Below, in pieces: positions 59,834-63,941 of a DNA stretch of 64,000 bases; the first letter of the stretch is position 1; the number at the start of each line of letters is the position of its first letter. A program made the translations under genes and the position numbers. Source of the DNA: Bacteroidota bacterium (GTDB taxonomy: Bacteria > Bacteroidota > Bacteroidia > B-17B0 > Aurantibacillaceae); contig JAAFIQ010000019.1 of NCBI GenBank assembly GCA_013298715.1, positions 1 to 64,000 on the forward strand, given 5' to 3'. The notes beneath the pieces were generated by a model that did no database searches, was not told the origin of the DNA, and saw only the letters and a list, made by a program, of their open reading frames with translations.

Positions 59834-61890
59834 TTATTCTTTTACAAATTTTTTGGTTACTACATTTTCGTTATAGGTATTAAGTATGTTTACAAAATAA
59901 ATACCAGGTTTGTAGTTTTATGTAATAAGCAACAATTCATTTTTTTGATTAATTGCTTCTTCATAAACTAACTGACCAATGGCATTATAAACCATAATTT
60001 TACTTAAACCCTCCTTATTACCAATTTGAATTTGAAGTTTTTCATTTGCTGGGTTAGGGTGGATAGTTACTTCGTAAGAAATTATGTTGTTATTGTTATT
60101 TGATAGCTCTTGAGTTTCTTTATCGTCATTTGTGTGAGTTTTCCCATCGCTTAAAGTAAAAAATTCTTTCTCATCATCCGCTATACTTGAATATCTGCCA
60201 ACACCAGCATCACAGCCTCGAATACAAGGTTGTATACGTGCTAAAAAATCTGAGCCTTGTTGTGCAGTAAAACCAGCCGCAAGAATAATCTCTTGCCCTA
60301 AAAATTTAACTATGGTGTTGTTTTGTATGGTAACATTAGCACCAGTTTGAATATTACCAGAAGCCATGTAAACACCAGCATAGGATCTTGTGCCTGGCAA
60401 AGGACCATTAAATGGGGGCACTGCATCGACATTAGCGCTTGTGTGTAAATCACTTGCATTAGAGAAGTTATAAAAGACTTTACAAGGCTCATCACCACTC
60501 ATAGACTCAATGAAAGCATTACTTGTACCATTAGGATTTAGCCACGGTTTTAATTGATTACTAGCCCCATTTTGATCATCCCATGATTGGTCAAATCTTC
60601 CATAGAAATCATTTTTTTATTACCACACGCAGCCTTTCCGCCATATAATTGTCCTATAATTAAACCATTTGAGTTATACAATGGAGAGCCAGACGAACCA
60701 CCTTCGGTAGAACCACTTTTCCATTCCTTAACTTTCCATACTTTGGCTATTGGAGTACCCCAATTACCTTTTGAAAGTTTTTTGTCGTAGGTAGATATTT
60801 TTTTTACATCTCCGTCTGGATGATGTATACCAACACCATTATTAGATCTTCCATCATCATTAGTCCAGCCAGATGCAAAGGAATTAAAATTACCAGGTGG
60901 TCTTGCTAATAACTCAAGCAATAAAAAATCAGAATTTTTATTCCTTGCTCTTATAGTTGCGCCTGATAAAATGTAGCTCGTTGACGGTTGGTTGGCCTGA
61001 TTGCTACAACCCTGACTTTGGTAATTAAAGATATAAACCCAATCACCAGGATCTTCAACCATAGTTGATTGATTACGATCTCTACTGTCAAAAAGACAAT
61101 GATTTGCGGTTAGAAAATATGGTTTACCATCTCGTTTTTCATTAGTTATTAGTGCAACTGTACAGAGCTTACTAAATTGGTCAGGGCTAGGATTACCTGT
61201 AAGGCCAGCTATTAAAGCAACCGATCTACGTTGATTACACCAATTATCACCTTCAGGACATTTAACATTAATATGGCAGGCCGAAGAAGTATTAAAATCA
61301 TTAAATAAAGATTTATTAAAAACAGGCTTAAATGAGTGAATAAATGCAGAAGCATGTATACTTGCGCCACCTACACTCTTTGGTTGATGGTATTCAAGCC
61401 TTACGGCATTTCCAATGATAGGACCTAGCGACATTCGATGATCGTTTCTATTCTGATCATTGGTATAAGCTCCTAAAACTTGGGTTAAACTATCATTATA
61501 AATATAAAAGCTTGCACCATTAGGAATAAAAAACGAATCGAAAATTAAAAAATTAGATAAGGCATTAACTGAAACTATACGTAAACGCCATAGTTTAGAA
61601 CTATCGGGTAATGTTTCCCATGTCCTAGAGTTATTCATTCCACAATTGATTGGTATCGCTTTTCCAAAGTTCGAAGATTTAATACTGTCATTTATTGAAG
61701 CAAGAGAATCTTGATACATCAAATAACTATTATTAAAAGTCGGCAGATTTATAGTTTGAATTTGATTAGGATTCAAAATCGAAGAATTCCCAAAGCTTAA
61801 GGGAGGGTTTGTGTTTTGTGCGAAAATTGGCAAACATTCTGTAAGGAATTATAACAATGGTATAATGTTTATTAATTTCATATATCTCAT
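59834..61890 (-). pseudogene. trypsin-like T9SS protease gene with two in-frame TAA codons and one frameshift
   Basis: The gene begins at ATG 61890 (overlapping the stop of the lipoprotein gene by ATGA) with a signal peptide interrupted by TAA at 61851-61849 (MKLINIIPLL-stop-FLTECLPIFAQ). The protease part follows, with FLTANHCLFDSRD (His), SDFLLLELLARPP (Asp) and GGSSGSPLY (Ser). At an A7 run (60618-60612, minus strand) one added A rejoins the frame (NKKNDFYGRFDQSWDD), matching the sequence after GKAACGNKK. The C-terminal sorting domain (HPNPANEKLQI, IMVYNAIGQLVYE) is broken by TAA at 59920-59918 and continues NYKPGIYFVNILNT...KKFVKE to 59834. Counting the added base gives 686 codons. Three lesions make a decayed gene the simplest reading. 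Confidence 0.85.
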
Positions 61891-62391: not shown

Positions 62392-63723
62392 TTATTTTTT
62401 AATTTGTTGTTTTAAAGTTTCAATCTCTTTTTTAGCAATTTCCAATTGTTTGTTTTGTTCTACTAAATATATTGTCAATTCTTCAACCTTTTTAAGTAAA
62501 GTCGTACTCATATCACCCAAATTTAAATTATTTGCTAAAATTTCTTTTTCGCTTGGCACTTTGGGCAAATGTTTGTAAAGTTTGTAAAAATCTTCAACTT
62601 CCTTTAAAGTGCGCAATTTATAATTGCTTTCAAACACATAATCGGGTATAGTACCAGCTTTTACTCTAATTTCGGGAGCAAACACATGGCCAATATTGCT
62701 AACTAAAAAATCTCTGTTACCGCCTGTGCCAATTACCTCAATACCATTGTAATTACCATTGGCTGTTATACTTAAATACGCATTAGGAGTGGTATTTGTG
62801 TTACCCATTCTTAATCGTCCATCTCCAAATACTTTAAAAATAGTACTTGTTTGATTATTGCCATAGTTTTCAATTTCAAACATTGATAAACCTCCATTGT
62901 AAGTTCTTGCTTTTATTGCCTTGCCTGTATTTACATGTAAATCTAAAGCCACATTGGTTGCTGGGCTGTTATTTGGCTCAATCCCCCATATTGGATCTCC
63001 AATTTCAACGTGTTGGCGGGCTTGTAAAAAATTACCCACAACAACCTTACCGCCACCGTTTGGTAAGCCTGTGTTTGTGCAAAGGTAAGCATCGCGGCCG
63101 CAAAAGTAGTTTATTGAAAGCGCATTATTTTCTTGCCCACTATTGTTTAAACCTTGCACTTCAGTATGCCCGTTGCCATCCCATGGTGCGGTAAACATGC
63201 TTAAACTTGCATTTACCTGGCCATTAGTTTGGCTAGATATGTAGCCCCCATAATTTTGCATCCACCAATAGTTGCTTGATGGGGTTGGGCAAATTGGAGT
63301 GGGTGGTGGCACCAATAAGCTATTTGTGTTTTCGCCAATTCGTAAAAAACTTTGGCCAGCCGAGTTAGTACCTAAAAAACGCATCCCTGAGTTTCCACCA
63401 AAATTAATACCTTGGTCTGCATTTATAGTGCTTTTAAACGTGGCGGTGCTTGTTACTGTTAATGCGCCAGTGATTCTAATATCATGCTCGGCAACAATAT
63501 CATCTTTTGCGGTAATGGTTTCGGTTGCTACAATTTCGTGCGCTTTTACAACATTAACGCTGGTTAAGGTGTCCATTACCTTAACATTTGTTGCTGTAAA
63601 TGTATTAGCTACTTGTGCTGATAAATTTTGGCTAATTAGCAGCATAGCGCCTATTTTAAGCGTTGTTTTTAAAACTGCATGGGGGGGGGGTAGCTGGGTA
63701 GGTTTTATAATTATTAAAACCAA
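62392..63723 (-). CDS. exported shaft protein with coiled-coil C-terminus (tail-fibre/S74-like)
   Basis: The mature protein is repetitive and beta-rich (VKVMDTLTSVNVVKAHEIVATETITAKDDIVAE, ITGALTVTSTATFKSTINADQGINFGG), then a variable middle and a C-terminal DFYKLYKHLPKVPSEKEI, LGDMSTTLLKKVEELTIYLVEQNKQL coiled coil, as in peptidase-S74-type tail-fibre-like Bacteroidota surface proteins. The frame can only start at TTG 63723 (leader VLIIIKPTQLPPPHAVLKTTLKIGAMLLISQNLSAQ). A good ATG at 63742 (MKK) is one base out of frame: see the C10 and A7 tracts. First gene of the operon with the lipoprotein and protease. Confidence 0.75.
   Translation of the reverse strand: MVLIIIKPTQLPPPHAVLKTTLKIGAMLLISQNLSAQVANTFTATNVKVMDTLTSVNVVKAHEIVATETITAKDDIVAEHDIRITGALTVTSTATFKSTINADQGINFGGNSGMRFLGTNSAGQSFLRIGENTNSLLVPPPTPICPTPSSNYWWMQNYGGYISSQTNGQVNASLSMFTAPWDGNGHTEVQGLNNSGQENNALSINYFCGRDAYLCTNTGLPNGGGKVVVGNFLQARQHVEIGDPIWGIEPNNSPATNVALDLHVNTGKAIKARTYNGGLSMFEIENYGNNQTSTIFKVFGDGRLRMGNTNTTPNAYLSITANGNYNGIEVIGTGGNRDFLVSNIGHVFAPEIRVKAGTIPDYVFESNYKLRTLKEVEDFYKLYKHLPKVPSEKEILANNLNLGDMSTTLLKKVEELTIYLVEQNKQLEIAKKEIETLKQQIKK
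63681..63690. repeat. G10 (coding-strand C10) homopolymer near the start of the S74-like gene
   Basis: Ten consecutive G on the + strand, read as C10 (PPP-H) about 13 codons into the minus-strand gene. With nine C instead of ten, the ATG at 63742 would be joined in frame to the rest of the protein. A T7/A7 run at 63733-63739 next to that ATG offers a second possible slip. The tract is striking in this AT-rich sequence. Confidence 0.85.
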
Positions 63724-63941
63724 AAAAGCAAGTTTTTTTCATGTCTTTGACAAATTTTAAATCTAATTTATAACAATTTTGAGGTGAATTCATTTTTATT
63801 AGATTAAATTTAAGGAAAAAATCGACTAAGTGTTATAATTTGTAGATTAAAGTAAACAACTTTATATGAGTAGCATTTTTGCAAGAATTACCCTTGAAAT
63901 AGTTAACAGCTTCTAAATTCGATTAAGCTTAATAATTTCAA

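Follow-up and report, generated by a model that had tools for sequence, protein, structure and literature searches.

The gene considered here lies close to the end of the 64,000-nucleotide stretch of DNA that we analyzed (the window), on the minus strand, and carries a run of ten C just 3′ of the start codon of what is predicted to be a secreted protein. (Tract lengths are written C9, C10 and so on; contigs are always named as such.) The ATG at 63740–63742 opens a 52-nt leader (MKKTCFFGFNNYKTYPA(T), 63691–63742), which includes a run of seven A (A7, 63733–63739, in the Lys-Lys-Thr codons) and leads into the C10 tract (63681–63690), so that the tract forms nucleotides 53–62 of the ATG frame. 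There follow a signal-peptide-like segment, HAVLKTTLKIGAMLLISQNLSAQ (63613–63680), recognized by inspection and by alignment with relatives, with the hydrophobicity seen in the paralogues, and then the mature part of the protein, which together with the stop codon occupies 62392–63612 and has short repeats at six-residue spacing near its N-terminus. Its final portion (62395–62643) encodes a C-terminal module, DYVF..YKL..LKEVE..KHLP..PSEKE...EELT, that includes a long terminal helix and is common to many proteins of the class. Upstream of the ATG, an AT-rich stretch (TTTAAAATTTG, 63743–63782) is similar in the copies on contigs C5, C11, C19 and C2 and in a copy from another genome of the genus (G048), and judging from its sequence it probably contains the promoter.

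The predicted protein has no family match in Pfam, NCBIfam or the PDB sequences, Pfam finds no T9SS C-terminal sorting domain (Por_Secre_tail or CHU_C) in it, and PHROGs returns only weak matches of unknown function. Its relatives were also searched for in viral contigs and none were found, which speaks against a phage origin. The structure model (pLDDT 37) was too poor for a fold search; it hinted at a strand periodicity of six residues and a C-terminal helix. Based on this layout, our guess would be a fibre or adhesin held together by the C-terminal helix.

Two neighbors in the window deserve mention. A trypsin-like protease gene, also on the minus strand (60550–61851; weak Pfam matches, below the cut-off), has an in-frame TAA at 61851–61849 in its signal-peptide region (MRYMKLINIIPLL*FLTECLPIFAQ), and may be a pseudogene or have a later start. 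It is followed, in another frame, by a separate ORF with a T9SS-type tail (59918–60502).

Reading frames through the C10 tract

The preliminary description of this locus had noted that the ATG at 63742 (MKKTCFFGF) is thrown out of frame by the C10 tract and that the loss of one C should restore it, and in silico frame tests bear out both points: with C10 the ATG frame gives 28 amino acids and then a stop, whereas with C9 it gives 449 amino acids. A C12 tract likewise yields a long product (450 amino acids), and C8 or C11 a short one (23–24 amino acids). The repeat unit is not divisible by three and lies inside the 5′ coding region, and in these translations a change of one unit toggles between the short and the full-length product. 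Provided that the assembled tract length is correct, the gene is most likely OFF as assembled.

The same description had also pointed to the A7 run. Combining A6 with C10 does open a frame of 449 amino acids (MKKLAFLVLIIIKP...), as it had stated, but we rejected the A7 run as a second switch, and A7 to A6 as a productive change, because the run does not vary in length among the five subfamily copies compared and the alternative frame is not conserved.

A different start could also make the tract unremarkable. With the assembled C10, a 443-amino-acid ORF opens at the TTG at 63721–63723, which the preliminary description had named as an alternative start and which is present in the paralogues on contigs C5 and C19 as well; the protein would then always be made, and the C tract would be a mere proline stretch. 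We consider this very unlikely: the paralogue at C12:87057 (contig C12), whose tract is likewise C10, lacks any ATG, GTG or TTG upstream of it in the corresponding frame, the G048 relative uses the ATG frame, and tract lengths, compared gene with gene, occupy each of the three phases, a spread that could not be tolerated with a fixed downstream start.

Long C tracts in the genome and the genus

The genome (4,011,927 bases in 46 contigs) holds nine distinct C/G runs of at least 9 and seven of at least 10, more than are expected by chance: a first-order Markov model built from the window (33% GC) and applied to 4.01 Mb predicts 2.1 and 0.41, respectively. Five of the nine belong to a single gene family, where each lies in the leader, 3′ of the ATG and ahead of the signal peptide's hydrophobic core; the other longest C/G runs within the window are of 8 and 6. 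A survey that proposed homopolymeric tracts at the 5′ ends of genes as inactivation or phase devices dealt mainly with A/T tracts of up to 7 and reported poly-C/G to be generally underrepresented (PMC2831843), which makes a C10 tract in a genome of 33% GC more notable.

A protein search within the genome found paralogues that coincide with the tract sites. Those at C5:18036 (contig C5; C10 at 18069) and C19:18460 (contig C19; C10 at 18493) are 70% identical to the window protein and 79% identical over the first 163 residues, respectively. Two more distant paralogues on contig C12 (C12:810 and C12:88732) have tracts at C12:1 and C12:87088, a further copy on contig C23 (C23:210153) has C8, and a decayed copy on contig C2 (C2:70213) has C7 and several stops. 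The ATG is kept in the paralogues, and the leader has the same length in the copies from contig C5, contig C19 and G048. All four complete C10 copies in the genome are one base too long for an open frame, and the C8 copy is one base too short. Contig C14 ends in ...ATGAAAACACCAAAACAAAAAACATCTTTTACCCCCCCC and contig C12 starts with twelve C plus matching downstream sequence, from which we infer that the two adjoin and form a fifth long tract. This split copy matches the one at C12:87088 exactly over 85 nt downstream of the tract and over about 72 nt upstream of the compared anchor, beyond which the two diverge; inside this otherwise identical sequence the tract has at least twelve C in the former and ten in the latter. 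The repeat itself, length heterogeneity or a combination of the two may have caused the contig break.

We then scanned 40 genomes of the genus and read the sequence around nearly every C/G run of at least 9. The layout of ATG, short leader, tract and long downstream frame was found in 14 genes: eleven family-type genes that passed the hydrophobicity cut-off, plus the window gene, its contig C5 paralogue and a G014 gene (L137), which fall below the cut-off and were included as paralogues or homologues of the window gene. Their tracts range from C9 to C14 (three C9, six C10, two C11, two C12 and one C14), with 4 in frame and 10 out. The preliminary description had suggested comparing tract length in sister strains; across the genus, both phases are present. 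Its proposal of on/off switching by the C tract is strongly supported by comparison, since the tract recurs, always at the same leader position, in paralogues and in other species with differing lengths and phases; the A7 part of its interpretation is not supported.

The most similar leader belongs to a G048 gene (L141, C69:61467): MKKTNVFGFIKAKLSGNTPPRLNQKNTLKIAVLMFLSQNLNAQ..., with C9 and an intact A7, in frame from the ATG to give a product of 517 amino acids that begins MKKTNVFGF, and with the alternative frame unconserved. That this gene is in frame at C9 from the equivalent ATG supports the ATG at 63742 as the start, with C9 and C12 as ON lengths, and it provides the best single argument that MKKTCFFGF would be the true N-terminus and C9 the ON state. 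A distinct G048 gene (L190) has an interrupted tract, CCCCTCCCCC. As a control for the sense strand, 14 C-tract and 5 G-tract loci of the genus passed a filter for a start plus a hydrophobic segment; the same filter gave 13 C-tract and 1 G-tract loci in the class-wide set described below, which had been pre-selected by C pattern.

These comparisons also bear on whether the gene is a decaying pseudogene or its C10 a misassembled C9. Sequencing errors are common in homopolymers, and the assembled lengths may be wrong; the C7 copy on contig C2, with its several stops, is clearly degenerate, and a stop interrupts the leader of the neighboring protease gene. We nevertheless give decay or error very little credence, given that the 440 codons downstream of the tract are intact and 52–70% identical to relatives, and that tracts of C7 to C14 occupy one and the same position in several species, a placement too consistent for random error or decay.

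Several tracts in other settings were also seen. A C12 tract in L007 (G000:C34, 205398–205409) divides the DNA-binding part of a helix-turn-helix regulator (XRE-like, by inspection) from a downstream open frame, and this regulator may be phase-variable too. Two similar lipoprotein-like genes at L008 (G000:C44) have a G tract at about the same place (G13 at 153815–153827; at least G9 at the contig end, 154652–154660). In three lipoprotein-like genes (L182 and L184 in G009, L140 in G048), C9 and C12 tracts lie a few codons past a lipobox-like cysteine, and all three are in frame as assembled. The G11 tract of L223 (G164:C3) lies within a signal-peptide-like segment (MKKLTTFRLFGFSFNFNKLLRGGGVLLILFINTTVYGQ) and is out of frame as assembled; the sequence after it resembles that of the contig C12 paralogues. 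The arrays at L099 (G015:C5:184608-184661) and L105 (G015:C22:49523-49554), in which C runs of at least 9 follow one another two or three in a row at a spacing of 22 bases, are of a different kind from the leader tracts.

Slippery leaders beyond the genus

In 395 genomes of the class, a pattern search turned up the same design in eleven genes from outside the genus. Each begins with MK...(T)PPP and a hydrophobic signal-like segment, and the proteins that follow are unrelated in content: L214 and L226 have Por_Secre_tail (T9SS) ends, L218 has SprB repeats, L206 PKD domains, L227 DUF6973 and L211 a weak bacterial Ig match (L226, L227 and L218 are longer stretches of loci L205, L203 and L194, respectively). 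Prevalence cannot be read from the raw class tally because many pattern matches are not gene starts. With a narrower pattern, 4 of 395 genomes of the phylum gave a match, all four within the class; the other classes sampled in that set gave none. Many relatives have ordinary leaders without a long C run, so the switch would be optional.

Over the genus and class sets together, 14 loci need one C fewer to open the frame, 6 need one more and 5 need no correction. This split is not clearly distinguishable from equal thirds (p = 0.054), a value that is only a guide because the loci were selected, by eye and by filter, once the scan had been run and because paralogues do not count as independent. 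It does bear on a reading in which the frame break is bridged during expression, either by transcriptional slippage on the C run or by a ribosomal +1 shift at CCC-C, so that C10 would yield a constant fraction of full-length protein. CCC-C runs are prone to shifting and RNA polymerase can slip on homopolymers, both of which favor such bridging, as does the fact that all four complete C10 copies in the genome need the same correction, the loss of one C. A one-way programmed frameshift is, however, excluded as a general rule, because the phases at homologous sites go both ways, and two-way transcriptional slippage could give leakage but would not explain the leaders described next, so we find bridging improbable.

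In two loci a pentanucleotide repeat occupies the position that poly-C holds elsewhere, and both are one unit from an open frame. The G023 leader (L048) has (AACTC)5 and would need six units for an open frame, which leads into a relative of the window protein; the G030 leader (L032) has (ACACA)14, and fifteen units open the frame of a protein that shares the C-terminal module. It is difficult to see what other than selection for switching would place a different slippery unit at the same leader position.

A proposed switch and its known counterparts

We propose that the C10 tract switches the predicted secreted protein on and off by translational phase variation, and put the probability of this reading at roughly 0.8. 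The frame logic, the recurrence of the tract, the differences in its length and phase from gene to gene and from species to species, and the intact frame beyond it are read directly from the sequence, and the presence of the same run, with varying length, at the same place in sister genes and relatives makes a random on/off switch very probable. Replication slippage in the C tract, within the n-region of the signal peptide, would produce single-base changes in length. With C9 or C12, translation from the ATG at 63742 would continue past a tolerant Thr-Pro-Pro(-Pro) stretch and on through the signal peptide, allowing export of the protein, whereas with C10 (as assembled), C8 or C11 it would end within about 28 codons. 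The residues encoded by the tract would be removed with the signal peptide on export, so that gain or loss of a whole codon would be harmless and a one-base change would silence the gene, which fits the loci seen. Tract length would thus be expected to change within the population and to control expression of a product that is presumably secreted or at the cell surface. The small number of ON copies in the class-wide set (1 in frame, 10 out) counts against switching, as does the common OFF phase of the four complete C10 copies, which could reflect shared descent. At least six genes in the genome have poly-C leaders, and cells could therefore display varying combinations of predicted secreted proteins.

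A broader possibility, which we hold with nearly as much belief as doubt, is that Bacteroidia have a reusable "switch leader", consisting of MK, a short variable stretch, a slippery repeat (TPP/PPP-coding or pentanucleotide) and a signal peptide, that has been placed on unrelated secreted proteins. The carriers are of fibre-like, T9SS-tailed, SprB-repeat, PKD and lipoprotein types. The leader would have spread by local recombination between paralogues and would give environmental bacteria a combinatorial, slippage-driven surface repertoire undescribed for the class. If this is true, phase variation would belong to the everyday life of environmental bacteria, perhaps directed against phages or grazers, and gene callers would misannotate such genes, giving OFF copies wrong starts or making them resemble pseudogenes.

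The slippage mechanism is already known; what appears to be new is the lineage and the leader design shared across Bacteroidia. Most descriptions of slippage switching concern host-associated bacteria, whereas what Bacteroidetes are known for is DNA inversion. Our literature search, which largely missed subscription journals, found no report of poly-C switching in Bacteroidia. A close likeness is to the slipped-strand phase variation of Neisseria, Helicobacter and Campylobacter (PMC5084427, PMC2823697, PMC6321876), where a C/G run in the 5′ coding region likewise toggles the frame of secreted or surface proteins and several such genes occur per genome; here the host is an uncultured Bacteroidetes, and the tract is invariably placed after the ATG and before the signal-peptide core, codes for TPP/PPP, and precedes unrelated families. 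The sortase-pilus G tract of Bifidobacterium breve, a non-pathogen, is also an intragenic G/C tract that joins a start and secretion signal to the protein in one phase only, and deep sequencing of it revealed mixed lengths (PMC9187656), whereas our case concerns another phylum and another protein, with tract lengths known from assemblies. The 5′-end homopolymeric tracts surveyed earlier (PMC2831843) share the position near the gene start, although those are mainly A/T and ours is C10. Finally, DNA inversion in Bacteroidetes (PMC5903667) provides reversible on/off control of surface traits within the same phylum, but it does so by site-specific recombination, in place of the tract slippage proposed here.
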